64,000 bases of DNA from Desulfurococcales archaeon (GTDB taxonomy: Archaea; Thermoproteota; Thermoprotei_A; Sulfolobales; Acidilobaceae): NCBI GenBank assembly GCA_015521705.1, contig WANR01000050.1, positions 1 through 64,000 of the forward strand, written 5' to 3'. Each line of letters begins with the position of its first letter. Position 1 is the stretch's first letter. Below the pieces are notes generated by a model. That model was not told where the DNA came from and searched no databases. It saw only the letters and a list, made by a program, of their open reading frames with translations. The translations under genes and the position numbers were made by a program. Of the stretch, positions 1-41,327 are shown piece by piece.

Positions 1-611
1 CCCTCCCTTGGCATATTCCATAGTAGCATCATGGTTGCCCAGTCATGCCTCCCAACCCTCTCCCTAGTGACCCCCTCACTGCTAGCTACTAGGACCACTA
101 TCCTATCGTAGTCGCCGGGCGGATACTCGATCAAATTGAGCAAGGTCTTAGTGTAGGCCTCCGCCCTGTCAACACCAACCGCCTGGAACAAGTCGTCCAT
201 CAGGACTGCTACCCGGGGCCTTCTAAGCCTCTTCATCACTAGGCTCGCAGCATTTATAGCAACATCAGCTACCCTAGAGTAAGGCTCGGGGAACAGTTTA
301 AGCGCTTCTCTCACCAAGTCCCTTATAGAAGGCGTGTAAGCCAGGGCTTCCTCTCTGCTCTCGGCTAGGGGGTTGGCATGGATCACGTGGTAGCCGTATT
401 CATCCTCTAGGATCTCCCTTGCCTGCCTGAATAGGGCGGTCTTGCCGCAGCCCTCGGGCCCGTAGATTACGTAGACGGGGTAGGTGCCTCTCTCGGCTAT
501 TTCACTAACCTGTGCTACAGCCCTATCCCTATCAGTAAACTCTACCTCAATGTCTCCGGAGAACTTGAGCTTAACCCTCTTCACACCGGTTCTCTGGAGT
601 GGGTTGTGCAT
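1..611 (-). CDS. AAA-type ATPase (archaeal ATPase family), 3' end outside the window
   Basis: This is the N-terminal part (about 203 residues) of a P-loop ATPase; the C-terminus lies beyond the left edge. A Walker A motif GPEGCGKT sits at residues 51-58. A Walker B-like VAVLMDD follows near residue 140, and a sensor-1-like VVLVASSEG comes about 35 residues later. The ATG at 611 is preceded by GGGAG about seven bases upstream. The gene starts 21 bp after the stop of the small gene at 633-1082, so the two are probably co-transcribed. The layout resembles the archaeal AAA/ATP-binding proteins often found in accessory regions. The cellular role is unknown. The ATPase fold is clear, the family assignment is moderate. 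Confidence 0.75.
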   Translation of the reverse strand, partial: MHNPLQRTGVKRVKLKFSGDIEVEFTDRDRAVAQVSEIAERGTYPVYVIYGPEGCGKTALFRQAREILEDEYGYHVIHANPLAESREEALAYTPSIRDLVREALKLFPEPYSRVADVAINAASLVMKRLRRPRVAVLMDDLFQAVGVDRAEAYTKTLLNLIEYPPGDYDRIVVLVASSEGVTRERVGRHDWATMMLLWNMPRE

Positions 612-632: not shown

Positions 633-1082
633 CTAGCCACCGCTTATGAGCGGCGAGAAGTAGTTCCTCGTTATTAGGGCGTTTTTACCTAGGTATAGGA
701 TGTATTGTAGCTTCTCCCTCAGAACCCCCAGGACCCTGGCGGGACTAGGGAGCTGGGGTAGGAGCCTCCTGGAGAGAGCATAGGCTAGGCCTGCTGCCAG
801 GGCTAGGCCTCTCGGCGTCTGAGCCTCGATCCTCGCTATGAGCTTGGCGAGCAGCTCCCTCACCCTAGGACTCCTGTACTCGCTAACCCTAGCCCTGGCA
901 GCCGCCCATAAGAGCGCCCTCTCCAGAGGTGCCAGTATCTTCCAGTACAAGCCCAGCCTCCGGGCCCTGTTAAGGGCCCTGGAGACCAGGGCCGGAGTGA
1001 CCCTGGAGGGGACAAGGGCCTGCTCTACGAGGCTTAATAAGTCATCGCTGCCCTCGTCCCCGGGTCTGACTGTGAGCGTCAA
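633..1082 (-). CDS. small helical protein of unknown function, copy 1 of a paralogous pair
   Basis: This 149-residue protein is rich in Arg, Leu and Ala and looks mostly alpha-helical, with no signal peptide or clear membrane span. I do not recognise the family. It is a paralogue of the protein at 12442-12882. Both contain ALVPxRxTPALVSR near residue 22 and an identical block of about 45 residues in the middle (RARVSEYRSPRVRELLAKLI and what follows). They differ at the extreme N-terminus and in the last 45 residues. The start appears to be TTG, and a TATA-like element CATAAATAC lies about 40-50 bp upstream. The gene is followed at once by the ATPase at 1-611. Its paralogue lies at the far end of the glycan cluster, so the pair frames that cluster. 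Confidence 0.7.
   Translation of the reverse strand: MTLTVRPGDEGSDDLLSLVEQALVPSRVTPALVSRALNRARRLGLYWKILAPLERALLWAAARARVSEYRSPRVRELLAKLIARIEAQTPRGLALAAGLAYALSRRLLPQLPSPARVLGVLREKLQYILYLGKNALITRNYFSPLISGG
775..905. repeat. 131-bp direct repeat, copy 1 (one mismatch to 12572-12702)
   Basis: By eye, bases 775-905 match 12572-12702 with one difference (position 876 is g, 12673 is a). The repeat codes for the shared central helices of the two small paralogous proteins. Identity falls off on both sides while protein similarity continues upstream, which fits gene conversion or recent recombination. Confidence 0.85.
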
Positions 1083-1122
1083 AGCAATAGTCGCCTGGTT
1101 TCACTGTAATTAGTGCTATGGA

Positions 1123-1131
1123 GTATTTATG
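1123..1131 (-). promoter_or_regulatory. TATA-like promoter element of the 149-residue gene
   Basis: Read on the minus strand this is CATAAATAC, about 40-50 bp upstream of the TTG start at 1082. The same nine bases occur upstream of the paralogue (12914-12922), which supports a shared promoter. Confidence 0.45.
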
Positions 1132-1311
1132 GATTACCATGCCTTGCAGTGGATTTTAACTTATTAAACCTAAAACGCCAGCAAGCCCTATGACGGGATA
1201 CTAGGGGTTCCAGGAACCCTGCAGAGGCTTCCTAGCCTAGAACCTGCATAGACTGGGGGCTCTTCACGGTTCCACCCTATCACTAGTCATCATACTAGAC
1301 GTGGGAGAGCA

Positions 1312-2211
1312 CTAGTGTGGGGTGCTGAAATCCGTGGCGCGTACATGGCGTGGATCCTGGCTAGTCACTTGTCGGCTCCTGTGTCTATGTTCCCGCACCG
1401 CTCTGGTAAAGAAGTAGTTTGTCTCTTTCTTGTCAGCCAGCGTGAGCCCTGTTCTTGTTATTTCGCTTATTATTTTCTCGTTTCCGGGCTGTATTTCTAT
1501 TATTAGCTTGTCTGTTTTCTCTAGGGTCTTCTTCATTCCTTCTAGGGCTATGGGTTCTGCTCCCTCTATGTCTATTTTTAAGAGATCCACCTTCTCGATG
1601 CCCAGGGCTTCCACTATGTTGTCTAGGGTGTCGGCCTCAGCTTCATATACTAGGTCGCCTCCCTTGACTATGGAGCCCCACCCGGTGGCGTAGTACCTGC
1701 CTATTCTAGGGACCCGAAGCTCGACCCTGCCCGCTTTATGGTAAACGGCCTTCTTCAGTAGCACCACGCTGTGCCTGGCACAGTTGAGCGAAACGTTGCG
1801 CTTCAGCAGCTCGAAGACGTCGGGGAGGGGCTCTATAGCCACAACTAGGTCGGCCCTCCTGCACGCCCTAGCAGTGTAGCCACCTACATTGGCCCCAACA
1901 TCCACGACTATGCCGCTAGCGTTGGGGAGGAACCACTCGTAGAGCTCGTATAGGTCGCCTATTAGAGTAGCCAGGCCTAGGTCCGCGGTTCCCGGCCTCA
2001 CTATGAACCTAAAGCCGTCCCAAGTCCTAACTATTAGAGGCCTACTACCAGGCACGTAAAAACTCAGAACGCCGCCCCTGCCTAGGTGGAGCATGAAATT
2101 GAGAGGGGCCAGCCATAGACGGAGCCTGTCTATAAGGCTCTCAGAAGACAGTCCGAACAGGTAATAATAGGCCTCCCGCAGCGCTTCCACCAGGCCAGAA
2201 TCTCTAGGCAT
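1312..2211 (-). CDS. FkbM family SAM-dependent methyltransferase
   Basis: A protein of 299 residues with the SAM-binding motif VVDVGANVGGY at residues 102-112. An acidic AIEPLPDVFELL follows about 20 residues later, and LLKIDIEGAE lies near residue 215, the characteristic FkbM-family block. Such enzymes usually O-methylate sugars or lipids, and here the likely target is the glycan made by the neighbouring glycosyltransferases. I chose the ATG at 2211 because it overlaps the stop of the upstream 1385-residue gene by eight bases (ATGCCTAG). A start further upstream would overlap that gene by over 70 bp. It is the last gene of the minus-strand glycan cluster. The family is certain, the substrate is inference. 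Confidence 0.88.
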   Translation of the reverse strand: MPRDSGLVEALREAYYYLFGLSSESLIDRLRLWLAPLNFMLHLGRGGVLSFYVPGSRPLIVRTWDGFRFIVRPGTADLGLATLIGDLYELYEWFLPNASGIVVDVGANVGGYTARACRRADLVVAIEPLPDVFELLKRNVSLNCARHSVVLLKKAVYHKAGRVELRVPRIGRYYATGWGSIVKGGDLVYEAEADTLDNIVEALGIEKVDLLKIDIEGAEPIALEGMKKTLEKTDKLIIEIQPGNEKIISEITRTGLTLADKKETNYFFTRAVREHRHRSRQVTSQDPRHVRATDFSTPH

Positions 2212-5200
2212 TGTCCGCGACGGCACCACGACCCACCCCTTGACGGTTCTTCCATGCCCCGGCGAGTACGCGCTCAACCATACCTATAGCGAGCACTGCA
2301 GCAGGAACCCCAAGCGACGCCAGCAATAACGTATACCCTGCCAGGAGAGGCTGGCCCCGGCCCACGTCGATCCTGAAAACTATCTTAGAGCCCGCGCCGC
2401 ACCCACCCTCGATGAAGGGGCTTAGGTTTACCGCAGACATGACGCCATAGGCTGGCATAGGGCTTGCCTCGACGGTCTCGCCGCACCATGTTATCGTGGC
2501 CCTAGAGACCCTAAAGGGCTCCTTTACGAATAGAACCAAAGGTGCCACAGGACTGCCTGAACCGTTAATTACCGAAACCTCCCCCCGATAGGTCTCGCCG
2601 TACGCGCTAACCTCCCTGCCATAGAGTTCAACCCTGTAGCCGACGTCCAGGCCACGCTCGAGCAGGTTCTCAGTATCTGTTGATACAAGAGCGATGGAGC
2701 CCAGAACGAGCCTCCCCTCGCCAATGTTCTCTATGTATATCTCGTGGACACCCTGCCCGAAATCCTGCTCTATCGCCTTGACCCAGCGTGGCCCTGCGAG
2801 GGCACTGCTTATCTCGAGAACCGAGCTATAGTTCCCGATCCTTACGTCGACTACCGCCCCGGGCCAGGCCTCAACAAGGTAAAGCATGAGGGAGGCTCTG
2901 GCGCTCTGCGGCACCAAAACCTTAAGGCCAAGCCCACCGCCGCTGGGCAGGAGAGCGTATGGCGTGTTAAAGACCTGGAGCCCCCCACTGTAATTATATG
3001 CGGCAGCCGCGCCAGCTAGGTACTCGCCCGGGTGTAGAGGGAACACGTTCCTGACAGCTATAAACCCAGGCGCCCCGGAAACGCTCTCGGGCAGCGAGCC
3101 CAGTATCTCCCCATAAGAGTCCTCCTCAACCAGGATCAGGGAGTCTAGAAACACTATAGTGCCAGGCGGCTTCAAGACGCGGATCTCAATGGCGCCTCCC
3201 CTGCCCTGCCTGCCTGCGTCCAGCTCGCCCAAGTCGATCCACGACCTGTATAGCGGCGTGCTACCCGCCACCTCTATAGTCTTGCTATAAACAGCCCCGC
3301 CAAGGCCTGCTACGATCTCTATCGAGGAATTCCTGCCCTCCATGTTCCGGATAGTGGCGCCCAGCAGCACCCTATACCTCTCACCGTCTCTAAGCCTCGA
3401 CTCGTCCACGGCTATGATGACACGCCCTCTCTCCTCGCCGTATGGAACCACTAGCTGGTACTCGCTGAGAGCGGTCGAGCCTAGCGGGTCACTATTAATG
3501 GTTCCGAGGAAAGGCTTCACCCAATAATGCGACCCGAACGCTCTCAAAATAACGTTCTCGCCGGCCGTGAAGTAACGGTAGAGCTTGATAACCTCTAGGC
3601 CGGGCCTGGCCTCGTAGGCCCACAAGTCTATGGGAGACACTATGTCGCTAATCAGTACGGGAGAGCGCCCCAAAATATCACCGTAATAGGCCCTGGCATC
3701 GATGTATGCCTGGCCCATAAAAAGGGGGGCAAAGACAGCGTTAGTATCGAGAGAGGCTAGGGCTATAAGCGCGTTGGCCCCACCATAAGCTACTATAGGT
3801 ACCCTCAACGCGGCCCACTCGAGCAGCCTGGGCGGTAGCGGCTCGACAGAGGCGACGACGCGGATCTCCGGGCTTTCAATAACCCTGCCACCACACTCCA
3901 AGCTCAAGCTAGTACCCGGCTCGAACCCAGAGAGATCATCAGCGCTAGCAAGAGGGTAGCTGATCCTGACCCAGTAATCCCTCAAAACTACGTCGTTACC
4001 GTTCCTTACATAGTAGGTTTGATCCGAGACCCTCCCCACAACAACCTTGCTAGGGTAAGCAAGGCCCGGGTATAGGCTTATGCCAAGTACCTCACCACTG
4101 ATCCGGCCCCCAAGCAACCCGCCAGAGTCCAGGCCTGCCCCCAGCGGGCCTTCAAACAGCTCCCGAGCCCTGATCTCGCCGTCAATGTAGAGCTCGACCA
4201 GCCCCCCATCGAAGATAACCGTGACCTGGTGCACCCTCCACCAGTCACGCACCCAAGCCCTCACAAAGCTCTCTCCGTTGAAGGAGAAATAGACGTACTC
4301 TCCCGAGTAGAAGAGCGCGAAGCCCCCACTCCCCCACGGCTCATTTCTGGTACCAACTATTAATTGCTCGCGACCGTAAGGGGGCTCTGACAGCCTGATC
4401 CATGCATTGAGGGTGAACCTGCCACTCTCCACAACCCTACCGACAAGGCTCCCATCAACCCCTACAACCAGGCCCGACTCTTCGCCGCCACCCCTAGAAG
4501 CTGGAGCAGACGGGGCAGCCTGGCCACCGGGTATAGCGTTGGCGCCGCCGCTTTCCAGGATCTCCACTAAGCAAACCTCTCCCGGAAGCATCTCGGGAAC
4601 CTTGACCCACAACTCAGCCCTGCCAGTAGAAATGGAGAACAAGTACAAGCCGTCGACCTCCGTAACCATGTACAAGTCCTCCCGTAGACCGCTAACCAGT
4701 CCGGGATCCCTGACGAAATACCAGTCTCCAGTATAGTTGCTGACTATGAGAGCGTCGAACCCGTAAGAGGCTAGTAGCTGCCTAAAATAGGGCGACTTGA
4801 TGTAGTAGAGGAGGTCTACCCGCCACGCGTAGCTGAAGGGGAAAGCTTTTTGGCCCACATACAGGTACCTGGGCTCGAAAACCGATAAATCGAGCACCCT
4901 GACAGTAAAGCCCTCCCCATAATACCTGCGCATCTCATCCAGCACCGACTTGTATGTAGAGTATGGCCACTCCATGGACAACGGGGACCTGGGCGCATTA
5001 TGGTAGACTGAGAGCATGGATGGAGGGGCGAAAACAGACACAGCTACTAAAGCCAGGAGAAACGCAAATGACAGGACGTGCCCCGCTCTTTTAGCCAACA
5101 AGTAAAAGGGCCTCCTCACCCTAAGAGAGGCAAGCACGCCATTCAACGAGAGGCCCCAGACAGCCAAGACTAGGGGCAAGAATAATCCGAGAACCCTGCC

Positions 5201-6361
5201 AGGGGTTCTAAATATGTTGGCAACTTCTAGGCCGGAAATCGAGCTAATATACTGGATTATTTCGCCATAGTACTTATTTACTAAATAGGCTAATAGGTAC
5301 GCAATGATCAGCATAGCCGATAAGTAATTAACGTGGTAGGCGCCACTTCTCCTAGGCCTATTACTGGCCGCCAATACTAGGCTCAGCACTATAGGCGTCC
5401 ATACCAGGAGAGAATAGGCTGCGACCCACACGGTATAGATCCTAGAGTAGTAGACTGGATAATTCTTCATTATAGCATAGGTATCAACGTCTACGAAGCC
5501 GAGCCAAAACACGAAATTAGAGACGCTCCACTGCCTATATTCATATATCGTCCTGCTAACCCTCTCCCAGTATAGTTCCTCGTAGAGTTCTCTAACGGAG
5601 ACTACCCCATAGCTATATATTAATACCGGCGGGATAATTAATATTATAAATAAAACAATATATATAATTATTTTATTTATAATATTATTATTTTTTAAGT
5701 TAATAAGAAAAGATACATACAGGGTCAGGGCGAGGAACAAGAGATAGAGGCCAGGCATGAGCCAAGCCAGGATCACTAGTAAGGCTAACAACACTAGGGA
5801 ATCTTTTAGTAAACCCCTGGCAGAAAAGGCCCTCTGCCCTTTGGACAGCTGCACGGATGATAGCTTGAGGACGTAGAGGAGGGCCAGGGGTATTATTGCG
5901 TAGAAGTACTTGACCGTCGGTATGAAATTCAGCCCCAGCATTAGGGGGGAAAGCGCGTAGACTAACCCGCCTATCATGCTTATGGATGCGTGGTTTACTA
6001 TGCTCCTTAATAGTAGGTACATTGATATAAAAGCAATTATTATCGATATAATTTGCATGATTAGTATTAATAATATGAAATTGTCTATGCTGAAGGCCTT
6101 CATCACTAGGTATGGGAGCACCGCCAACACAGGGTTATTCATGTGCAGGATATATGGCGAGGAGTACGAGGGAGAGTAGAAGTGGAGGAGGCTGCCTAGA
6201 TACTCCTTCTCGTGCCAGAGAAACACGTAGCCTCCATTATCAGCCTGGTACCTCGCTATATACTCGAACCCCGTGTAGGTCTTATGGATGACTAGGATCG
6301 ACGCTGCCAGCGTTGAAGCTACTAGGATAACTAGGAGTGCCTCGTAGAGTGTTCTTGCCAC
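2204..6361 (-). CDS. large GT-C-like membrane protein with a LamG-like region and a C-terminal anchor
   Basis: At 1385 residues this is the largest gene here. The first roughly 460 residues hold about a dozen hydrophobic segments in the style of GT-C membrane glycosyltransferases or YfhO-like proteins. A long extracytoplasmic part follows. In it, residues about 640-790 look like a LamG/concanavalin-type jelly-roll (FTLNAWIRLSEPPYG, WWRVHQVTVIFDGG, VELYIDGEIR). Further beta-rich sequence comes next, then one hydrophobic segment just before a short basic tail (GVPAAVLAIGMVERVLAG). The likely role is transfer or surface assembly of sugars from a lipid carrier, with the lectin-like part holding glycan; this is inference. 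The start at 6361 overlaps the upstream GT4 gene by 31 bp. Bases 5641-5700 are almost pure A+T. Confidence 0.75.
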   Translation of the reverse strand: MARTLYEALLVILVASTLAASILVIHKTYTGFEYIARYQADNGGYVFLWHEKEYLGSLLHFYSPSYSSPYILHMNNPVLAVLPYLVMKAFSIDNFILLILIMQIISIIIAFISMYLLLRSIVNHASISMIGGLVYALSPLMLGLNFIPTVKYFYAIIPLALLYVLKLSSVQLSKGQRAFSARGLLKDSLVLLALLVILAWLMPGLYLLFLALTLYVSFLINLKNNNIINKIIIYIVLFIILIIPPVLIYSYGVVSVRELYEELYWERVSRTIYEYRQWSVSNFVFWLGFVDVDTYAIMKNYPVYYSRIYTVWVAAYSLLVWTPIVLSLVLAASNRPRRSGAYHVNYLSAMLIIAYLLAYLVNKYYGEIIQYISSISGLEVANIFRTPGRVLGLFLPLVLAVWGLSLNGVLASLRVRRPFYLLAKRAGHVLSFAFLLALVAVSVFAPPSMLSVYHNAPRSPLSMEWPYSTYKSVLDEMRRYYGEGFTVRVLDLSVFEPRYLYVGQKAFPFSYAWRVDLLYYIKSPYFRQLLASYGFDALIVSNYTGDWYFVRDPGLVSGLREDLYMVTEVDGLYLFSISTGRAELWVKVPEMLPGEVCLVEILESGGANAIPGGQAAPSAPASRGGGEESGLVVGVDGSLVGRVVESGRFTLNAWIRLSEPPYGREQLIVGTRNEPWGSGGFALFYSGEYVYFSFNGESFVRAWVRDWWRVHQVTVIFDGGLVELYIDGEIRARELFEGPLGAGLDSGGLLGGRISGEVLGISLYPGLAYPSKVVVGRVSDQTYYVRNGNDVVLRDYWVRISYPLASADDLSGFEPGTSLSLECGGRVIESPEIRVVASVEPLPPRLLEWAALRVPIVAYGGANALIALASLDTNAVFAPLFMGQAYIDARAYYGDILGRSPVLISDIVSPIDLWAYEARPGLEVIKLYRYFTAGENVILRAFGSHYWVKPFLGTINSDPLGSTALSEYQLVVPYGEERGRVIIAVDESRLRDGERYRVLLGATIRNMEGRNSSIEIVAGLGGAVYSKTIEVAGSTPLYRSWIDLGELDAGRQGRGGAIEIRVLKPPGTIVFLDSLILVEEDSYGEILGSLPESVSGAPGFIAVRNVFPLHPGEYLAGAAAAYNYSGGLQVFNTPYALLPSGGGLGLKVLVPQSARASLMLYLVEAWPGAVVDVRIGNYSSVLEISSALAGPRWVKAIEQDFGQGVHEIYIENIGEGRLVLGSIALVSTDTENLLERGLDVGYRVELYGREVSAYGETYRGEVSVINGSGSPVAPLVLFVKEPFRVSRATITWCGETVEASPMPAYGVMSAVNLSPFIEGGCGAGSKIVFRIDVGRGQPLLAGYTLLLASLGVPAAVLAIGMVERVLAGAWKNRQGVGRGAVADNA
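5641..5700. other. A+T island inside the GT-C-like gene
   Basis: By my count only 2 of these 60 bases are G or C, in a window that is otherwise GC-rich. The reading frame stays open and codes for an Asn-rich loop followed by an Ile-rich membrane segment. Confidence 0.8.
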
Positions 6362-7500
6362 TTTTTCACTCTCTTCTCTGAGGTTACATCCTCGTATAGC
6401 TCTATGAACATGCCCACTATTCTGCTCCAGTCGTGCCTTTTAGCGTATTCCCTCCCTTTGGATCCCATTTCCCTCCTTAGGCTTTCGTTCTCCAAGAGGT
6501 GCTCGATCTTGGCTGCGAGGTCTCTGGCATTATAGGCTTCATAGAGCAGGCCGGCTCCGGATAAGAGCACTGTCATGCTGCCCCCAGCTCTGGTCGATGT
6601 TATGACTGGGCACCCGGAGGCCATTGCCTCTAGCAGGACTATGCCGAAGCCCTCCCTCATTGTTGGAGAGGGTAGTACTAGGATGTCTGCAAGTCGGTAG
6701 AACTTGGGGAGATCCTCCTCGGGCACCTCGCCAAGGAAGAGCACTTTATCCCCCACTTCCAGCCTTTCCGCCAGGGATTTATAGTATCCTAGCAGGGCTC
6801 CTTGACCCACGACTAGCAACGCTACGTTTTCCATGCCCAATATTCTTAGAGCGACCAGTAGTAGGTCGGGCCTCTTGTACAACTGGCCCACTGTGAGGCC
6901 CCCAACGAATAGTAGAACCCTTTTATCACCGAGACCTAGTTTCTCCCTTAGATCCTCGGCAGCTTCTCTTGGAGTGTTCGCGAACCTCTGATAGTCTATC
7001 CCAATCGGTATCACGGCTACCTTACTACAGGGCACCCCCCTCTCACAAAGAACCCTCCTGTACAGGGTTGTCGTCACGATGATTCTATCATAGCGGGGTA
7101 AAAGCCTGGTCTTAAACCTCATATAGGCCCCGGGGAATCCTCTTAGCCTGGCATCGGCGTGGTACGTCGTGACTATGGGCTTTGAGATCCTCTTAGCCGC
7201 GAAGAGCGTTTCGTCCCCTACTATTGACGGATCGTTGGTGTGAACCACGTCAGGGTCTAGACTCTTCAATAGCGTGTAAAGCCTGAACGGGTCTAGCAGC
7301 TGGGTCTGGTACTCTATGTACCCCGTCCTGAACACCTTTACACCATCAATGTTTGAATAGGCCTTGCTGAGGCTCCTGCTGGAAGTGACTACAAAAGCGT
7401 CAACGCCCCTCTTCACCAGGGATCGTGCCAGGCCTAGGGTGTAGCTTATGCCGCCCCCCTTACCGGGGTAGAAGTCCCTAATAGTTAATACCACCTTCAC
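6331..7500 (-). CDS. GT4-family glycosyltransferase
   Basis: A GT-B fold glycosyltransferase of 389 residues. The N-terminal domain opens with a beta-strand and a glycine loop (YPGKGGGISYTLGLA) for acceptor binding. The C-terminal nucleotide-sugar domain contains LLFVGGLTVGQLYKRPDLLL near residue 205 and the EX7E motif EGFGIVLLEAMASG near residue 290. It probably transfers a sugar from a nucleotide donor to a lipid-linked glycan on the cytoplasmic face. Its start overlaps the preceding hydrolase gene by four bases (ATGA) and its end overlaps the GT-C-like gene, so the three are translationally coupled. Donor and linkage cannot be read from the sequence. Confidence 0.9.
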   Translation of the reverse strand: MKVVLTIRDFYPGKGGGISYTLGLARSLVKRGVDAFVVTSSRSLSKAYSNIDGVKVFRTGYIEYQTQLLDPFRLYTLLKSLDPDVVHTNDPSIVGDETLFAAKRISKPIVTTYHADARLRGFPGAYMRFKTRLLPRYDRIIVTTTLYRRVLCERGVPCSKVAVIPIGIDYQRFANTPREAAEDLREKLGLGDKRVLLFVGGLTVGQLYKRPDLLLVALRILGMENVALLVVGQGALLGYYKSLAERLEVGDKVLFLGEVPEEDLPKFYRLADILVLPSPTMREGFGIVLLEAMASGCPVITSTRAGGSMTVLLSGAGLLYEAYNARDLAAKIEHLLENESLRREMGSKGREYAKRHDWSRIVGMFIELYEDVTSEKRVKKWQEHSTRHS

Positions 7501-9065
7501 GCCTTACCCTTCCCTTCCCTAAACAGGGATCTGAGGCGCTTCTTGAGGCTCATGAGCGAGTCGTAGCTAAGGCCTGGCCGGGGCTCTTCCTCAAATATGT
7601 CGCTGATGACCCTCCCATCCATGTAGCTTGGCGGCTTGACTCCATGAATAGCTAGTATGGTTGGAGCCAGGTCAACTATCCTGGCATCTCTCTCATAGCC
7701 CTGCCTAATATTGCTGCCATAGGCCATGAACACGCCGTACAATGTGTGGTAGCCAGTGTTCTCCCTGAACTGTGCAAGCCTGGGCTCGACAATCCTCCTG
7801 GCAAAGGGGTTGGTTTTCACCTTGAAGGGCCTCTCGTTAGACTCGCCGAATAACACGAATACGTCCGGCACCTTGTCAATGTACGGTCCCTCCCTGTAGA
7901 CTTCCCACTTAGGTATCAGCCTGAGAGCCGTGGGTAGTTCAGGGTCCCCGCCCAGCTTCTCGAGGACTTCGCCCACGACTTCCCTGTAGCTGCCGGGATC
8001 CACGGAGCCTCCTGCCTCTCTACCCTTAAGGTTCACGTTTACGTGCCCATCTAGGAAGGCTACGTAGGCCCTTGTCCTGGCCCAGTCTATTAGTCCTAGA
8101 GTGAACTCGTGGGCTCCAAAGCCTGAAGCCTTTAGTGCCTTCTCTTTCAAGCTCTTAGGCAGGTAGCCGTAGACCCTCTTGCCAACCTCCTTGGCTACCG
8201 AGTAAAAGAGGCGCTTAGCAGCCAGTAGCCTGCTCCTTGTAGCCAGGAGGCCGTGCCTCTCCAGCACCGCGTTAAGGTATAGAACCCCATAGTATGGGGC
8301 AAACCCGTGGTCAGACACTATGAAGACGGTATAGTCCCTGCCCAGGCCCTCCAGCAGTTCACCAATATACTTGTCGACTTTTTCGTAGAGGGACCTAACT
8401 ATGTCCTCGTACTCAGGCCTGTACAGTGGGTGCTCAGGGTCTATGAAAGGCGCGTAGTGGTGGTGGAGCATCTCAGTACTCATAACGACCCAGAACAAGA
8501 GGTCCCAGTCACGGTTCTCAGTGTACCACTCCACGAAGCTGTACTGCTTATCCAGGATCTCGTGGGCCTCCTCTACGTATCCCCTGGTACCCGGCCTGGA
8601 CTTTGGGAGGATCTTATACCCCTGCCTGCGCAGCCTCTCCCATACATCCCTGGGGTAAGCGAAGACATGGTCTGTAGAAGGCGTAAGCACGGAGCTCACA
8701 ATGGCCCCGCGCTTAAGAGGCCTAGGCGGGTACGTTACCGGGACATTGACAACGAGACACCTATAGCCCAGCTCGTCGAGTATCTCCCAGAACCTTCTAA
8801 CCCTGACCATGGTAGAGTTCGGAGGCAGGAGTCTAAAGCCTCTCTCATCCATCAAGAGCACATCATAGATACCATGCTTGGGCGGGTAGACTCCTGTGGA
8901 GAGTGATGTCCACGCAGGGAATGAGTGTATGGGCAGAACGGATTCAAGCCTGCCATGAACCCCCTCACGCAGTATCCTGGCCACCGTGGGCAAACGGCCT
9001 TCGCCGGCCCACTTAGTTAACACGTCAAGGCGCGCGCCGTCGAGCCCTATTATAATGGTTTTCAA
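7497..9065 (-). CDS. alkaline phosphatase superfamily phosphodiesterase/phosphotransferase
   Basis: This 522-residue protein belongs to the archaeal alkaline phosphatase/nucleotide pyrophosphatase-like group. It starts with KTIIIGLDGARLDVL, giving the first metal-binding Asp. The nucleophile region is FPAWTSLSTGVYPPKHGIYD at about residue 48-67, with a conserved Thr/Ser. VFIVSDHGFAPYYGV near residue 245 supplies the second Asp-His metal site, and a further conserved His lies in GYHTLYGVF near residue 450. No signal peptide is visible, so it probably acts in the cytoplasm. In this cluster it may hydrolyse or transfer phosphodiester groups on glycan intermediates. The stop overlaps the next start by four bases. 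The exact substrate is unknown. Confidence 0.85.
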   Translation of the reverse strand: MKTIIIGLDGARLDVLTKWAGEGRLPTVARILREGVHGRLESVLPIHSFPAWTSLSTGVYPPKHGIYDVLLMDERGFRLLPPNSTMVRVRRFWEILDELGYRCLVVNVPVTYPPRPLKRGAIVSSVLTPSTDHVFAYPRDVWERLRRQGYKILPKSRPGTRGYVEEAHEILDKQYSFVEWYTENRDWDLLFWVVMSTEMLHHHYAPFIDPEHPLYRPEYEDIVRSLYEKVDKYIGELLEGLGRDYTVFIVSDHGFAPYYGVLYLNAVLERHGLLATRSRLLAAKRLFYSVAKEVGKRVYGYLPKSLKEKALKASGFGAHEFTLGLIDWARTRAYVAFLDGHVNVNLKGREAGGSVDPGSYREVVGEVLEKLGGDPELPTALRLIPKWEVYREGPYIDKVPDVFVLFGESNERPFKVKTNPFARRIVEPRLAQFRENTGYHTLYGVFMAYGSNIRQGYERDARIVDLAPTILAIHGVKPPSYMDGRVISDIFEEEPRPGLSYDSLMSLKKRLRSLFREGKGKA

Positions 9066-9089
9066 CCAGCTGACTCCCCGGGTGCCTGG

Positions 9090-10301
9090 CTAGGCCGTTG
9101 GCAATGTCTTATATAAGCTCTCGTATAGCGGGGCTATGCTGCTCCAGTAGTAGAGCCTTACTTTTTCCAGCAAGAAGCGCCTAGTGCGTTCCCTAGTATC
9201 AGCGTCCAGTAGCAGCTGCGTAATTTTACTTGCCAGCTCTACAGGGTCGCCTGGATCCACCAGGAAATCGTAGGGCTCTAGTATCTCGCGGAGCCCGTCA
9301 ACCTTAGTCGCTACAAGGGGCTTCCCTAGGGCCATGGCCTCTAGGGCCACCAGCCCGAAGGGTTCTATTAGCGAGGGTATAACGACCAGGTCCGAATCGG
9401 CTAGTGCCTCCTTCTTCTCGGCCTCGTCCAGGTAGCCCGGCATGATGACACGTTCTTCTAATCCCAGCCTACGCGCCAGTTCCTCTAGTACCCGCCTATA
9501 AGGGCCTTCGCCAATTATTACTAGGAATGCCTCGGGAACCTCCCTTAACACACTAGGCATGGCCCTTATTAGTGTCTGGAAACCCTTTCTCGGGTGCAGC
9601 CTACCTATAGCTAGTATAATTCTCTCCCGAGGCCCAATGCCGAACCTCCTCCTGAACAACCCGCGACCCACGCCGCCCGCATAGCCAGGCTCTATACCGT
9701 TAGGTATCACTAAAACACGGCCTGGAGCGGCCCCGTACACAACGGCCTCCTTAGCTATAGCCCTAGAGATCGCCGACACCATGGCTGCTCCTCCCAGGGT
9801 TCTTCTTCCCAAGAGTTTGGCGTATAGAGCAAATACTAGCCTAAGCAGCTTGCCGCCAAGATAGGTGGGGCTCCTGGGTATTCCATGCACTGTCAACACA
9901 TACGGCTTCCCATGAAGCATTAGCAGAAGTGCCGCATAGTCCACCAAAAGGTGCCCATACCCGTGAAGGTGGACTATGACCCTCCCCCCGCGGCTCACCG
10001 ACCTGACTATTCTATAGAGCGCCGCCGCCGATGGCAGGTTAGGCGGCATGTACGTCTCTAGGTTAGGCAAGAAGCGGGGCGTGGGCAACAATGGGAGCCA
10101 GACCACATGGACGCCTCCATCAACCTGAACCCATGGCTTATCGAGTAACCCCCTAGATTCGTGGTAGCCAGCAACAACAACCACCCTATACCCTCTTCTA
10201 GACAACTCCCTAGCAAGGCTCCTAACAACGACGCCGCCGCCCCCCACATTGTGAGGGGGGTACTCGGGAGCTATCATTAGCAAAGCCCCAGCCAGAGTCA
10301 A
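9090..10301 (-). CDS. GT4-family glycosyltransferase
   Basis: A GT-B glycosyltransferase of about 403 residues. It has the N-terminal glycine loop APEYPPHNVGGGGVVVRSLA and a HLHGYGH motif. The C-terminal part contains ILAIGRLHPRKGFQTLI, VIIGEGPYRRVLEELA and the EX7E block EPFGLVALEAMALG. I chose a TTG start at 10301 because it overlaps the TGA of the upstream gene in the usual TTGA pattern. The next ATG (10277) is a possible alternative, and a start at 10367 would overlap the neighbour by 70 bp. It forms a pair with the adjacent GT4 gene at 10298-11515 and presumably extends the same glycan. Confidence 0.88.
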   Translation of the reverse strand: MTLAGALLMIAPEYPPHNVGGGGVVVRSLARELSRRGYRVVVVAGYHESRGLLDKPWVQVDGGVHVVWLPLLPTPRFLPNLETYMPPNLPSAAALYRIVRSVSRGGRVIVHLHGYGHLLVDYAALLLMLHGKPYVLTVHGIPRSPTYLGGKLLRLVFALYAKLLGRRTLGGAAMVSAISRAIAKEAVVYGAAPGRVLVIPNGIEPGYAGGVGRGLFRRRFGIGPRERIILAIGRLHPRKGFQTLIRAMPSVLREVPEAFLVIIGEGPYRRVLEELARRLGLEERVIMPGYLDEAEKKEALADSDLVVIPSLIEPFGLVALEAMALGKPLVATKVDGLREILEPYDFLVDPGDPVELASKITQLLLDADTRERTRRFLLEKVRLYYWSSIAPLYESLYKTLPTA

Positions 10302-11515
10302 GGCGGCAGAGCCTCTTCTACCCCGTCTAGGTAAACCTTGAGGTGTAGCCTGGCCATGTTGTCCCACGACAGTAGGCTCTTCAACCTAGTGCTCCTCTCA
10401 CGGCATCTTTTAGGGTTGGACAAGACGCGCTCCACAAGCATGGATAACTCGGCTGGACTATATCTATCATCCAGGTATTTCTTGACGTAGCACCTCTCAA
10501 AAGCTATAGCGAGGGCTTCAGGCCCGCTGGCCCCTATCCTGGCCCTATAGGGGAGCACCACTACATCGGAGGCTGAGAAGTAGAGCCTGATCTTCTCTTC
10601 TGGCAGGTACCCGGCAAGCACTAGGCCGCCCCTATCACTCACCTCGCGGCGGACACGCAGGGCCATTCCAAGGATCCTCCTTAACCATGACCTGTACCAC
10701 CTACTCCTGGCTAGCCTGGGGTGTGGGCCGCCGGCTATGACAAGGACTGTTTCCGAGACCCTCTTACTGAGAATCCTATAAGCCTCGAGTAGCTCCTTGA
10801 TACCCTTGTAGCCAGACAAGTAGCCAAAGTACAGTATAACCCTCCTATCCCGGAGTCCCAGCCTTCGCTTAGCCTCATCCATGGGCAGGGGCCTGGCTTT
10901 CTCGACGCCGTGGGGCACGACCTCTATTTTACCCGGCGGCACCCTGTAGTCTGTTGCCAGGTGCTTCTTCATGAACGCCTCATGCACTATGACTCTGTCC
11001 GAGAACGATGCAAGAAGCCGGGTCACGAGAAGCAGTCCGAGCCTAAGAATAAACGGGGGCCCTCTTAGCCCGTTCTCCCTCCTGAAACCCTCATCGTCAA
11101 GAGCCCTGAGGGGGAATACGCCGTGGTGCATAGTGGTTATGACACGCTGCACCACGAGGCGAGATAACAGGACTAGGAGGGGGGATAGAGCCGACGCCAG
11201 TAGCCCGCCATAGAGGAAGTGCTCATGCTGTATATGGGCTGCTACAGGCCTGATCCTGCACAGCTCCCTGAACACCTGGAAAACATACGAGGCTCTCCTG
11301 CTAAATGACCGTATAACGAAGACGCCGTTCTCACGGTACACCCTGGAAACTTTTGGCAGCCTATCAGCTATAACGAAGACCTCGGCGCCTGGATTCACAG
11401 TCTTCAGAGCCTCGGCCAGGTTCTTCGTATAGGATCCCACCCCGCTACCATAGGCATGAGTCCTATACGGGGGGGCGTATGGCGAAACCAGCGCTATCCT
11501 CAGCCTAGCCTCCAA
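10298..11515 (-). CDS. GT4-family glycosyltransferase
   Basis: This 405-residue protein has the GT-B glycosyltransferase layout. The N-terminal loop is PYAPPYRTHAYGSGVGSYTK, followed by a His-rich HIQHEHFLYGG segment. The donor-binding domain starts near ILYFGYLSGYKGIKELLEAY (about residue 225) and contains VLVIAGGPHPRLARSR. The usual EX7E motif is weaker here (GASGPEALAIAFE), so donor binding may differ. It lies 25 bp downstream of the GT2 gene and is joined to the next GT4 gene by a TTGA overlap. It is likely one step of the same surface glycan pathway; donor and acceptor are unknown. Confidence 0.85.
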   Translation of the reverse strand: MEARLRIALVSPYAPPYRTHAYGSGVGSYTKNLAEALKTVNPGAEVFVIADRLPKVSRVYRENGVFVIRSFSRRASYVFQVFRELCRIRPVAAHIQHEHFLYGGLLASALSPLLVLLSRLVVQRVITTMHHGVFPLRALDDEGFRRENGLRGPPFILRLGLLLVTRLLASFSDRVIVHEAFMKKHLATDYRVPPGKIEVVPHGVEKARPLPMDEAKRRLGLRDRRVILYFGYLSGYKGIKELLEAYRILSKRVSETVLVIAGGPHPRLARSRWYRSWLRRILGMALRVRREVSDRGGLVLAGYLPEEKIRLYFSASDVVVLPYRARIGASGPEALAIAFERCYVKKYLDDRYSPAELSMLVERVLSNPKRCRERSTRLKSLLSWDNMARLHLKVYLDGVEEALPP

Positions 11516-11540
11516 TCCTTCCAGGGCCCCAGAGGACTTC

Positions 11541-12431
11541 CTAACCCCTCTTGTAGAGGGCTACAGCCACATATAGCTTCCTGAAGACGCCGACAACAAA
11601 CCTCTTCCAGCCAGAGACATTTATAGCCGTCGTGAACTCCCGCCCCACAGCATGCACGTTACCCAGATTTATGACACGGCCCACGCCATACCTCCTAAGA
11701 GCCACATGTTTCCCTGCCAGTGTAAGTAGCCTCAGAACCAGCAGGTCAGCCAGCATTGTCAGCAAAGCCCTCAGCGGGGCTATGGTTGACTCTTCCCTAT
11801 TTTCGTTCCAGGCAATATTGACGGTTCCATGCCTCAGCCCATGCTTCTTAGCCCAGACAATAATCTCCGTGTCATAGGCAAACCCGTCAGTCCTGGTCAT
11901 GCCTACAAGAATCACTAGAGCAGCACGCCTACTCAAAACCTTAAAACCCGCCTGATGGTCTCTATAGCCAGTCCTGAACAGTAAGTTAACGACGGAATTG
12001 TAGGCAACTGACAAAAGCTGCCTCAAAACCCCATGACCCCGGCGAGCCCTAGTAGGCACCAAAACGTCAAGCGACGATCTCACAGTTAAAAGAACAGCCC
12101 TATAGACAACCTCGGCAGACACAGGCATGTCGGCGTCCAATAAAACAATGTAGTCACCCATAGAGTACGGCATAGCATTCTTAATAGAGCCACCCTTGCC
12201 TACCCTAGCCGTTAAAAACAAAGCCTTTGACAAGCCACGCTTTGCAAGCCTCATCATAGCCCAGACGGTAGGCCTGTCGTACACATCAGACACACAGAGG
12301 ATCTCGTAAAAGAAGCCGTGTCTCACAGCGAGGTGTCCTAGTTCACTAGCGAAAAGGCTTATCCTATCATAAAGGCTCTCGCCCTCCCTGGCGACGGGAA
12401 CTATAACGCTAAACCTCAACAGCTCCACCAA
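11541..12431 (-). CDS. GT2-family glycosyltransferase, dolichol-phosphate-mannosyltransferase-like
   Basis: A 296-residue GT-A glycosyltransferase. The N-terminus RFSVIVPVAREGESLYDRI is the usual GT2 opening. The metal-binding DxD-like motif is in IVLLDADMPVS near residue 95, and TDGFAYDTEIIVWAKKHG near residue 185 matches the acceptor-side ED-like region. The C-terminus has amphipathic or hydrophobic stretches but no clear paired membrane anchor. Enzymes of this type often make polyprenyl-phosphate sugars, so this one could supply the lipid-linked donor used by the GT-C-like protein at 2204-6361. It ends 25 bp before the next gene. It begins 10 bp after the stop of the duplicated small gene, so it is the first glycan gene of the cluster. 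Confidence 0.88.
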   Translation of the reverse strand: MVELLRFSVIVPVAREGESLYDRISLFASELGHLAVRHGFFYEILCVSDVYDRPTVWAMMRLAKRGLSKALFLTARVGKGGSIKNAMPYSMGDYIVLLDADMPVSAEVVYRAVLLTVRSSLDVLVPTRARRGHGVLRQLLSVAYNSVVNLLFRTGYRDHQAGFKVLSRRAALVILVGMTRTDGFAYDTEIIVWAKKHGLRHGTVNIAWNENREESTIAPLRALLTMLADLLVLRLLTLAGKHVALRRYGVGRVINLGNVHAVGREFTTAINVSGWKRFVVGVFRKLYVAVALYKRG

Positions 12432-12441
12432 CCACCTAACA

Positions 12442-12882
12442 TCACCTAATTATGTAATAATTCTGCATAATCAACAAGTTTCTCCCTAAATATAACAAAT
12501 AATTCATCTTCCTTCTAATAAGGATCAGGACCTGGGAGAAGCCAGGCAACGAGGAAAACAGCCCCCTTGAAAGAGCATAGGCTAGGCCTGCTGCCAGGGC
12601 TAGGCCTCTCGGCGTCTGAGCCTCGATCCTCGCTATGAGCTTGGCGAGCAGCTCCCTCACCCTAGGACTCCTATACTCGCTAACCCTAGCCCTGGCAGCC
12701 GCTCTAAGTATAGCCTTTTCCAGGGGGCTCAGAAGCCAGTAAACGCGTAGCCTCCGAGCCCTATTAAGGACTCTGGAGACCAGGGCCGGAGTAAGCCTTT
12801 CTGGGACCAGAGCTTTCCCCACTAATTCCGCTAGATCCTCCCTGTTTAAGCCATGAAGGGAGGGTTGCTCGTACAAGCACAA
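12442..12882 (-). CDS. small helical protein of unknown function, copy 2 of a paralogous pair
   Basis: This 146-residue paralogue of the protein at 633-1082 has the same ALVPxRxTPALVSR start region and an identical central block. The last 45 residues differ: they are Ile/Leu/Asn-rich and coded by AT-rich DNA, ending QNYYIIR. No ATPase follows it; the next gene is the GT2 glycosyltransferase, 10 bp away, so it may be the promoter-proximal gene of the glycan operon. The likely start is TTG at 12882, with a CATAAATAC promoter element at 12914-12922. The function is unknown. The near-identity of the DNA points to recent exchange between copies. Confidence 0.7.
   Translation of the reverse strand: MCLYEQPSLHGLNREDLAELVGKALVPERLTPALVSRVLNRARRLRVYWLLSPLEKAILRAAARARVSEYRSPRVRELLAKLIARIEAQTPRGLALAAGLAYALSRGLFSSLPGFSQVLILIRRKMNYLLYLGRNLLIMQNYYIIR
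12572..12702. repeat. 131-bp direct repeat, copy 2
   Basis: This copy matches 775-905 with a single mismatch and in the same orientation, about 11.8 kb away. Recombination between the copies would excise or circularise the whole glycan cluster. Confidence 0.85.
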
Positions 12883-12913: not shown

Positions 12914-12922
12914 GTATTTATG
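12914..12922 (-). promoter_or_regulatory. TATA-like promoter element of copy 2 and possibly of the glycan operon
   Basis: On the minus strand this reads CATAAATAC. It is centred about 36 bp upstream of the TTG start at 12882, which would place transcription start about 10 bp before the start codon. It is identical to the element upstream of copy 1. Confidence 0.45.
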
Positions 12923-13031: not shown

Positions 13032-14132
13032 CTAATCCCCCTGTACATAGCTTATGAGCAAAATAAGACTACTGGTAAATATAGCGGCTAATAAGAGAAT
13101 GGAAAGCCCTATTATTTCAAAAACTAATAAAACAATAAATAGAAATACTAGAGGAATCGACAAGCCTATGAAGAAAGCCATCCAGTGTACTACCCTAATA
13201 GCTTCAATGCTACTAAGCGATAGAACCATGAGAGGGACCACGTAAGCTAAGGTTACTCCTATCGTAAGGAAACCTGGACTAATTGTAAAAGAGAACCCAA
13301 ACAGTATATTTATAAATCTAAAAGCAATGATAAATATAACAAAAATTAATAGTAGAAATAATATAATTGTGGTTAAGCCTAGCCTCTTCTTGGGTCCCTC
13401 GCTAAAACGATCTGTAATAAAAAATAGAAGCAACGCAAAGGCAATCATTGATATTAGTAGTAGTGATAGTGAGGAAGCATAAACAGGCTCTAAGGGCACT
13501 AGCCTAAATCTAAGCCATAGCGTGATGAATAGCAGTAGTGAAATAATGAAATACGATCCTAGAATGGTTATTACATAGCACCACGAGCTAATCTCGCGCC
13601 TACACATAAAACCCTTAAAGCCAAGGCTTGACACAGAGCCAGCCATGATACTGGCCATTAGTGGTACAAGTAGAAAGGATAACCCGTTTTCCAGCAATTT
13701 GATTATTATTGGCTTGCCTGCGGGCTCTTTAAGGTATATGTAGAACGTGTTGGGAGAGCCTAGGGTTTTCACGTCAAATAGTATGGAATCTACTAGAGCC
13801 GGCGCCGTGGCTACACTCCATTTGTAGACCGTTTTAAGACCCTTACTCTCAATGCTCGATTCTAGATAGTTGAGTATATCTTTTACTGGATCCTGCCTCT
13901 CGCCCATAAGATCCTTCAAAGCTTCATATAAAATGTGGGTATAGTTCTTTTCTAGGTCTCCTGCAAAGGCTATGCTGCCAAGCAGCTCGCCCCCATACAT
14001 GATAGAAACGAAATAAATGTCAGTTCCTAGCACGGATTTCCCAAGTACTCCTAAAACGGCGATCAGAAATAACCCAAATATTCCTAGAAAAGCGAGGCTG
14101 ACGTTTCCTTCCTTCAAGACGCTTCCTCCCAT
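13032..14132 (-). CDS. polytopic membrane protein of unknown function
   Basis: A 366-residue protein with one N-terminal membrane segment (LAFLGIFGLFLIAVLGVLG), an extracytoplasmic stretch of roughly 130 residues, and about six hydrophobic helices in the C-terminal 210 residues. This layout resembles ABC-2-type permeases, with a large loop after the first helix, but no diagnostic motif is visible and no ATPase gene is adjacent. The gene is clearly richer in A+T than its neighbours. It sits between the heme A synthase gene and the duplicated small gene, separated from each by 150-180 bp, so it is probably transcribed alone. I do not recognise a family; the membrane topology is the only firm statement. 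Confidence 0.65.
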   Translation of the reverse strand: MGGSVLKEGNVSLAFLGIFGLFLIAVLGVLGKSVLGTDIYFVSIMYGGELLGSIAFAGDLEKNYTHILYEALKDLMGERQDPVKDILNYLESSIESKGLKTVYKWSVATAPALVDSILFDVKTLGSPNTFYIYLKEPAGKPIIIKLLENGLSFLLVPLMASIMAGSVSSLGFKGFMCRREISSWCYVITILGSYFIISLLLFITLWLRFRLVPLEPVYASSLSLLLISMIAFALLLFFITDRFSEGPKKRLGLTTIILFLLLIFVIFIIAFRFINILFGFSFTISPGFLTIGVTLAYVVPLMVLSLSSIEAIRVVHWMAFFIGLSIPLVFLFIVLLVFEIIGLSILLLAAIFTSSLILLISYVQGD

Positions 14133-19158: not shown

Positions 19159-19560
19159 CTAGCCCCAAACCAGCCCCCCTATACTGTAGTCGTCGATCAC
19201 CACTATAGCATTCTTTAATGCCTTTCTCCATGCAGGCTTCCTAAGCATGACCCTAGCCTCGCCTGGCGTCCAGGGGATCGGGCTTAGGCCTTCCAGCCCC
19301 TCTGGAGGATCTGGGATCAAGGCTTGCCTCTGAAGGAACCTGCGGCCTTCGAAAGCCTCCGACACTATTATGACGTCGACATCGCTCCACACGTTAAAAT
19401 CCCCGCGCGCATAGCTACCATAGAGTATTACCGTGGCTCTGCCTAAAGCCTGCCTCAGTTCTTCAGCGTACACCCTTAGAAGCCCTATTACCCGTTCCCT
19501 CTCCCTGCGCCTCCTCTCCAGAACCTCCGAGTCTCTCCGCACAGCTCTTAACCCACTCAA
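19159..19560 (-). CDS. MNT-type minimal nucleotidyltransferase
   Basis: A 133-residue protein with the polymerase-beta-type nucleotidyltransferase motif LYGSYARGDFNVWSDVDVII (GSx10SDxD) near residues 46-65. An IPWTPGEARVML region and a third acidic position (VIDDYS) follow later. It is the partner of the HEPN protein encoded just upstream. In characterised pairs the MNT protein is the antitoxin and modifies a Tyr of the HEPN RNase. The TTG start at 19560 gives a 98-bp overlap with the HEPN gene, which is unusually long. An internal GTG at 19542 still overlaps. Either the HEPN frame has lost an earlier stop, or the MNT start lies further in. Confidence 0.8.
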   Translation of the reverse strand: MSGLRAVRRDSEVLERRRRERERVIGLLRVYAEELRQALGRATVILYGSYARGDFNVWSDVDVIIVSEAFEGRRFLQRQALIPDPPEGLEGLSPIPWTPGEARVMLRKPAWRKALKNAIVVIDDYSIGGLVWG

Positions 19561-19954
19561 TTATACTCGTGCTACACTCTTTAGCGTTAACAGCCTCCTC
19601 CAGGGTGTACTGCTCCTCGGGAGATCCTCCCGGGAGAGCGTCTGGATAGCGAGGCGGTATGTACATCTTATTCAAGACGCTAGCACAGACCACAATACTC
19701 CTGTCAGCAGGGCCACACACCCTCACAGCCTCACCGAGTAGGGCTACAAGGTCATGGCCGAAGCGCGGATTACCCACCAAGTGTAGAAGGGCCTTCAAGG
19801 CAAGCTCAGCGGCTTGGTGCGACTTGAAACAAGCCCAAGAATAACCCCCATACTCTATATCGGCGTCAATTAGCTGGCGAGTCCTCTCCGCATACCTAAT
19901 CCACCTCCAATACTCATCCCAGTCGAGCAAAACAGGTAAACCACCAGCACCCAT
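19463..19954 (-). CDS. HEPN-domain protein (toxin partner of MNT)
   Basis: A 163-residue helical HEPN protein. The N-terminal helix carries WDEYWRWIRYAERTRQLIDA, then SWACFKSHQAAELALKALLH, then GNPRFGHDLVALL with the conserved His. The C-terminal signature MYIPPRYPDALPGGSPEEQY is typical of archaeal HEPN proteins paired with MNT proteins. The last roughly 30 residues (GGSGEEAQGEGTG and on) are low-complexity and lie in the part that overlaps the MNT gene, so they may be read-through sequence. The start is ATG at 19954. Members act as RNases or as nucleotide-binding partners. The pair is likely a toxin-antitoxin module. Confidence 0.82.
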   Translation of the reverse strand: MGAGGLPVLLDWDEYWRWIRYAERTRQLIDADIEYGGYSWACFKSHQAAELALKALLHLVGNPRFGHDLVALLGEAVRVCGPADRSIVVCASVLNKMYIPPRYPDALPGGSPEEQYTLEEAVNAKECSTSIIEWVKSCAERLGGSGEEAQGEGTGNRASKGVR

Positions 19955-40373: not shown

Positions 40374-41327
40374 ATGGGTACTGGCAGGCTTGGAGGAGTC
40401 AGGGTACTAGTAGTAGAGCCTGTAAGCGAGAATCTAAGGTTTTTACTGGAGAGAGAAGGGGCCCTAGTCGATTATAAGCCTGGCATGGATAGGGAGGAGC
40501 TGCTACGAGCTATACGGGGCTACGACGTGCTAGTTGTCAGGGGTAGGACGCGCGTCGACGAACCCCTCATAGCAAGGGCTGTAAGGCTAAAGGTCGTAGC
40601 TAGGGCCGGATCTGGGCTAGACAACATAGACGTCGAGCGCCTAGCCAGTAGGGGCGTTAAAGTCGTCAACACCCCCGAAGCAGTTGCTGAGAGCGTGGCA
40701 GAGCTCGCCATAGGCCTCATGATAGCAGCCTCGCGGAGCATGGTTCAGGCCGCTTCCAGGGTCAAGGAGGGCGGCTGGGAGAGGGTTATGGGTAGAGAGC
40801 TCCATGGAAAGACACTCGCCATAGTGGGCTTTGGCAGGATAGGGAGAAGAGTGGCCGAGATCGCTGTCAAGGCGTTTCACATGAGAGTCAGGGCCTACGA
40901 CATCGCCGACGTAAGGGACCATGCCAAGAGGATCGGCGTGGAAGTTGCCGGGTCGCTTGAGGAGGCCTTGAAAGGCGCGGACTACCTATCTCTCCACGTC
41001 CCACTCACGCCGTCCACCTATAGGATGATAGGGTGGGGCGAGCTACAATTGCTTAGAGACGGCGCCGTTCTGGTCAATACCGCGCGCGGGAGCGTTGTGG
41101 ATGAAGAGGCCCTGTTAAGGGCCCTGGAGGAAGGCAAGCTAGGCGCTGCAGCGCTCGACGTCCTGAGCGAGGAGCCCCCCCAGAGCCCCGTCCTGAAGAA
41201 ACTGGTGGAGCACCCACGGGTCATAGTGACGCCCCATATTGGGAGCACTACCAGAGAGGCCCAGGAGAGGGCTGCAGCCATGCTGGCCTCTAAAATAATA
41301 GAGGCACTCGCGGGCCCGGGTGAGTAG
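40374..41327 (+). CDS. serA: D-3-phosphoglycerate dehydrogenase
   Basis: A 317-residue D-2-hydroxyacid dehydrogenase. The substrate domain is RVLVVEPVSENLRFLLEREG, and the NAD-binding loop is LAIVGFGRIGRRVAEIAVKA near residue 145. The catalytic Arg lies in VLVNTARGSVVDEEALLRAL, the Glu in LSEEPPQSPV, and the His in VIVTPHIGSTTREAQERAA. It lacks the C-terminal ACT domain of long SerA, as in many archaea. It oxidises 3-phosphoglycerate in serine synthesis. Other hydroxyacid dehydrogenases are related, but the aminotransferase gene 2 bp downstream supports the serine role. The operon context with trpB2 also fits because tryptophan synthesis consumes serine. Confidence 0.88.
   Translation: MGTGRLGGVRVLVVEPVSENLRFLLEREGALVDYKPGMDREELLRAIRGYDVLVVRGRTRVDEPLIARAVRLKVVARAGSGLDNIDVERLASRGVKVVNTPEAVAESVAELAIGLMIAASRSMVQAASRVKEGGWERVMGRELHGKTLAIVGFGRIGRRVAEIAVKAFHMRVRAYDIADVRDHAKRIGVEVAGSLEEALKGADYLSLHVPLTPSTYRMIGWGELQLLRDGAVLVNTARGSVVDEEALLRALEEGKLGAAALDVLSEEPPQSPVLKKLVEHPRVIVTPHIGSTTREAQERAAAMLASKIIEALAGPGE

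Follow-up and report, generated by a model that had tools for sequence, protein, structure and literature searches.

The analysed window is a 64,000-nt stretch of contig WANR01000050.1 (C50) from the draft genome of a Desulfurococcales archaeon (GCA_015521705.1), an assembly of 55 contigs that is 82% complete. Two small genes, named here the leader genes, lie in the same orientation around seven glycan-related genes (Table 1), and both ORFs are found at the coordinates and on the strand given by an earlier sequence-only reading. By sequence the two are paralogues, and they are the only copies in their own genome. The TATA-like 9-mer CATAAATAC is common to the upstream regions of both copies and of the homologue in the relative G008.

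Table 1. Leader genes and neighbouring features in the window
Feature	Position	Strand	Remark
Leader gene, left copy	633..1082	-	149 aa, basic, predicted all-helical; heads a PF01637-ATPase block running off the contig
Leader gene, right copy	12442..12882	-	146 aa; heads the seven-gene glycan block
Left copy core	775..905	-	131 bp; differs from the right core at one base
Right copy core	12572..12702	-	near-identical to the left core
TATA-like CATAAATAC	1123..1131	-	upstream of the left copy
TATA-like CATAAATAC	12914..12922	-	upstream of the right copy
GT2 glycosyltransferase	11541..12431	-	directly behind the right copy; 60% identity to the gene that comes next after the leader in G012
GT4 glycosyltransferase	10298..11515	-	
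GT4 glycosyltransferase	9090..10367	-	
Type I phosphodiesterase/nucleotide pyrophosphatase family protein	7497..9065	-	
GT4 glycosyltransferase	6331..7500	-	
1385-aa membrane protein	2204..6361	-	weak laminin-G-like domain, below the Pfam cut-off
FkbM-type methyltransferase	1312..2277	-	closes the right block
PF01637 archaeal ATPase, N-terminal part	1..611	-	21 b downstream of the left copy; truncated at the contig end

The glycan-related assignment is least certain for the 1385-aa product, which is probably a membrane glycosyltransferase or a surface protein. Between the left copy and the FkbM gene that closes the right block lie 229 b, in which a promoter-like element is found. Upstream of the right copy, an ORF at 13032-14132 (-) encodes a 366-aa membrane-protein-like product without a Pfam match; its GC of 0.40 and GC3 of 0.41 are those of a possible recent acquisition. 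Elsewhere in the window, overlapping nucleotidyltransferase (PF01909) and HEPN (PF05168) genes at 19159-19954 (-) form an MNT/HEPN toxin-antitoxin-like pair, and a 22-bp match of the left copy within a 2-hydroxyacid dehydrogenase gene (41108-41129) is taken as chance.

The left copy stands 632 b from the contig end, which is why the block that it heads was missed by the sequence-only reading. A second contig, C41 (L121, 1-5727), overlaps the end of C50 by 24 exact bases with the ATPase reading frame intact, and adds two PF01637 ATPases, which makes three in tandem, a fused Polbeta-HepT gene and a GT2 gene, all on one strand. The block of the left copy likely continues from C50 into C41. This join is likely rather than certain because the 24-b overlap lies within a repeat that is also present in ATPase no. 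3; C50 leads into C41 whichever way the overlap repeat is paired. ATPases no. 1 and no. 3 are near-identical over some 200 bp, including two exact runs (79 and 95 bp), and otherwise diverged, and the break of C50 coincides with the end of this tract.

A contig that stops exactly at a near-identical tract of a neighbouring ATPase, in a fragmented and incomplete metagenome-type draft, brings to mind an assembly artefact, by which the layout would come from a chimeric join or a collapsed repeat. This explanation is very improbable. A misjoin presupposes a repeat and cannot make one, and both copies have long unique flanks within one contig. Moreover, if the flanks were exchanged at the repeat, the outcome would be a deletion and a circle, and no other linear order that keeps the cluster. 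Comparable same-strand tandem leaders also occur in two relatives, 15.9 kb apart in G107 and 12.1 kb apart on a 1.2-Mb contig of G174.

In the repeat between the two copies a single mismatch separates 101 exact bases from the following 29. No other repeat in the window comes close to it in length, the second longest having 45 bp. All 43 amino acids and 42 of the 43 codons of the core are identical between the copies. Of the 101 flank residues, 56 are identical, and the codon is the same for 25 of these (Fisher p = 3e-9). The longest run of identical codons, 33, was reached in 0 of 20,000 shuffles. Against the G008 homologue 19/45 residues are identical in the core and 48/100 in the flanks, the corresponding values between the window copies being 45/45 and 53/98 (about 54%). 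The core exceeds the flanks in the window pair and does not in relatives. Since the synonymous sites match as well, recent recombination is indicated rather than selection. Both the near-identical core in otherwise diverged genes and the gene conversion proposed in the sequence-only reading are thus upheld, the former by the repeat and codon comparisons and the latter by codon identity, the comparison with relatives and the shuffle test alike.

Selection on the protein, or on a DNA or RNA element inside the core, would be the alternative source of this identity, and the core does hold the E, T, RG and G residues that are invariant in the family. Selection is nevertheless left with next to no probability, and was rejected, given the agreement at synonymous sites and the ordinary conservation of the core in the G008 homologue. 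An Rfam search for a structured RNA in the core also gave no match.

In a tree built without the core the two window copies are still sisters (support 95/92), which makes them paralogues of one lineage whose core was exchanged afterwards. The GC content of the right core (0.64) is nearer to that of the 5' part of the left copy (0.62) than to that of its own flanks (0.53 and 0.38). This base composition faintly suggests that the exchange went from left to right. A 45-bp exact repeat with 14 identical codons (57663-57720 and 58642-58699) also joins two oligopeptide ABC-transporter ATPase genes that are neighbours and otherwise diverged, and looks like another conversion patch. As tracts occur in both the PF01637 and the ABC-ATPase pairs, short-patch conversion is probably general in this genome. 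Consequently, the leader tract by itself is no evidence of a special boundary function. Among the five two-copy leader pairs tested, a 3' tract covers 17 identical codons in the pair of G174 (p = 0.0012), and those of G107, G105 and G087 have no significant tract.

Of the 214 genomes of the order, 51 gave a leader in a profile search, mostly as a single copy. The share within the family is 6 of 48, and one genome of the class has a leader outside the order. Since most genomes of the order do without it, glycan islands do not require the gene. The window protein alone had no match in a collection of named genomes; a ten-member alignment found 15 loci there, and the named relatives with a leader are Desulfurococcaceae, Thermogladius, Thermosphaera, and Sulfolobales or Thermoproteota. 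Family-wide shared positions are A, W, R, E-x-x-T-x-R-G, G and L-G, and the median pI is 10.6. The AlphaFold2 model is all-helical (pLDDT 82). A second member was modelled at pLDDT 77, and its model had no fold match.

No curated family covers the leader, as shown by searches of Pfam, NCBIfam, PHROG and PDB sequences. Foldseek found no match among PDB and viral structures, a type of search that small helical proteins can escape. A known family or fold was rejected on these searches, and the sequence evidence places the leader in an undescribed protein family. A viral or plasmid origin was likewise rejected, no relative being present in the viral contigs and plasmids searched. Three homologues (G057:C1:142581-143009, G093:C119:3343-3639 and G099:C1:558680-559028) have an in-frame stop or are split in two, and are apparent pseudogenes or assembly errors.

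At about 40 loci the leader stands mostly ahead of glycan genes on its own strand, as the first of the run, and in some cases it heads PF01637-ATPase genes instead. With the curated PF00534 model, 43 of the 95 GT4 genes in 11 genomes lie within 20 kb downstream of a leader, where 1.3 are expected; these genomes are related to one another, which makes the p value inexact, but the asymmetry is plain. All 43 are on the strand of the leader. The seven GT4 genes upstream of a leader all belong to G174, which has two leaders. A Pfam tally of the next four genes gives 32 GT2 and 18 GT4 of 106 downstream and 4 GT2 of 104 upstream; FkbM and epimerase genes are also found downstream. No integrase or transposase is among the most frequent Pfam families of the neighbours (top 25 of each tally). 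In seven other genomes (G059, G066, G107, G123, G127, G160 and G174) leaders are followed by PF01637 ATPases.

An operon-like gap upstream of the leader occurs at 1 of 39 loci, the next gene is on the same strand at 37 of 39, and a TATA-like site precedes the leader at 26 of 44 (background 11%). The leader is thus predicted to start a transcription unit with its own promoter. Many contigs of relatives (loci L059, L061, L066, L067, L074, L077 and L080) stop within a few kb of the leader, as is expected if the neighbourhood is repetitive or strain-variable.

Given that the leader is often directly upstream of a GT2 gene, it may be a passenger or an enzyme partner of that first GT2, for example a glycan-enzyme subunit, with no part in regulating or organising the island. 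The relatives G047 and G109, which belong to different families, have as their only continuous common stretch the segment from -53 to +1310, that is, promoter, leader and GT2, and the 60% identity of the G012 GT2 points the same way. Such a partnership is a serious possibility, though a rather unlikely one, because the leader also heads exosortase/MoxR and PF01637-ATPase blocks that have no adjacent GT2. It concerns the role of the protein and is compatible with the leader being the head gene of an island.

The content behind the leader changes among relatives. Homology between the loci G107a and G105a reaches through the leader as far as +501, where an 8.4-kb exosortase/MoxR segment follows in G107a and not in G105a; the junction carries an imperfect short direct repeat. 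The loci G107b and G105b agree to +577 and then differ in downstream content. The relatives G075 and G098 agree to about +896, followed by an 8.4-kb difference, and G075, G095 and G098 have similar leaders with different downstream content. In the locus L070 (5451-13925) an exosortase/archaeosortase-like (PF09721) and MoxR-type AAA block lies right after the leader, and the sister genome is without it. The leader of G106, a single-copy genome beside two-copy relatives, is a mosaic with a-type sequence in the first two thirds and b-type in the last third (p < 5e-5). No clean deletion between tandem leaders is claimed for G106: the mosaic is clear, but the genes upstream of the leader resemble neither parent locus. 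The island swapping near the leader that the sequence-only reading had supposed is therefore supported in relatives, by content that changes at the 3' side and by one mosaic leader.

That reading had further taken the two window copies as the frame of one island, boundary repeats between which recombination would excise, amplify or swap the cluster. The direct orientation and the 131-bp near-identity agree with this, as do the mosaic leader of G106 and the content changes adjoining leaders in relatives. On the other hand, most relatives have a single copy, at the 5' end only, and the left copy leads an ATPase block of its own, which likely runs on into C41. Boundary repeats around one island are accordingly quite unlikely. 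What stands of the framing is that, across the order, the gene marks one boundary of surface-glycan islands, the 5' one. The pair does not form the left and right borders of a single island, each copy being the first gene of its own block.

The leader is probably the head gene of replaceable surface or glycan islands in the order, present here as two tandem heads with a later short-patch exchange. This interpretation builds on the position of the gene, the strand bias, the tandem layout, the conversion tract, the 3'-side content changes in relatives and the one mosaic leader, all read from sequence. Each head gene, with its own promoter, would usually be followed by same-strand GT2 and GT4 genes and sometimes by PF01637 ATPases. 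In the present genome two such genes, sister paralogues, would each lead their own block in tandem. About 131 bp would later have been copied, probably from left to right, in a nonreciprocal short-patch exchange that followed duplication or acquisition. Because every island begins with a related head gene, the head offers homology for island replacement. It is likely used as a crossover point, and island content would be replaceable there by ordinary RadA-type recombination that leaves mosaic heads.

The role of the protein is less clear than that of the gene. The basic helical product may act in cis on the expression of its own block, as an expression or elongation factor, a tentative proposal that falls somewhat short of even chances; an enzyme subunit, a scaffold, a DNA-organising protein or something else are the alternatives. 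The bolder version, in which the leader would be the first known archaeal island-specific expression factor, with a new fold and a cis-acting role, which every surface-glycan island would carry to drive its own long operon, a functional counterpart of UpxY and RfaH whose gene doubles as the crossover point, is decidedly doubtful.

Several known systems resemble this arrangement. The leader islands are a variant of the replacement flexible genomic islands for surface structures (Lopez-Perez et al. 2014, PMC4033161; for the cell-wall island of Haloquadratum walsbyi, PMC4535781), which are blocks of surface genes, known in bacteria and in an archaeon, whose content varies from relative to relative and is swapped through homologous recombination. 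As in those islands, the functional role is the same while gene content varies among related genomes after similar leaders, the genes downstream are for exposed structures (GT2, GT4, FkbM and epimerases), and boundary recombination has left its signal, as tracts or a mosaic leader, in the window pair and in some of the relatives. The leader islands differ in that their 5' boundary is one defined, sometimes mosaic, family across a hyperthermophile order, and in that the leader can stand in tandem copies heading successive blocks.

UpxY, a NusG paralogue encoded within the capsular polysaccharide operons of Bacteroides, and RfaH (PMC7593976) offer a second comparison: small proteins encoded in surface-glycan operons, with several copies in several operons per genome. 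In position, the leader at the head of its glycan block fits a factor that would act on its own operon. The UpxY and RfaH proteins are of the NusG family, whereas the leader is predicted to be all-helical and matches no NusG model, neither an N-terminal NusG nor a KOW-type C-terminal domain being found by Pfam, NCBIfam or Foldseek. The VARTIG modules of Thermococcales (PMC8416519) likewise pair a conserved upstream gene with a variable set of genes downstream, and show recombination inside the former. Their head gene, however, encodes a large Ig-domain protein, in contrast to the 145-aa leader (146 and 149 aa in the window), basic and predicted to be helical, and the cargo behind the leader is mainly glycosyltransferases. 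By analogy, the leader would work like the island head genes of both systems and belong to neither family. Short-patch gene conversion is reported in Sulfolobus acidocaldarius (PMC4471258), with nonreciprocal short tracts of the kind that a 131-bp tract between diverged paralogues needs; there it was shown with transforming DNA, and here it is inferred between paralogues about 11.8 kb apart.

Surface glycans of archaea have roles in virus attachment and in species-specific cell recognition. To our knowledge, the organisation and exchange of surface-glycan islands in hyperthermophiles are hardly described. The 131-bp tract would add a naturally occurring example of short-patch conversion, here with diverged paralogues as partners. 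One family that marks the 5' ends of islands across the order gives a handle to find these islands and to date their swaps, and it allows testing whether the islands carry their own expression factor.
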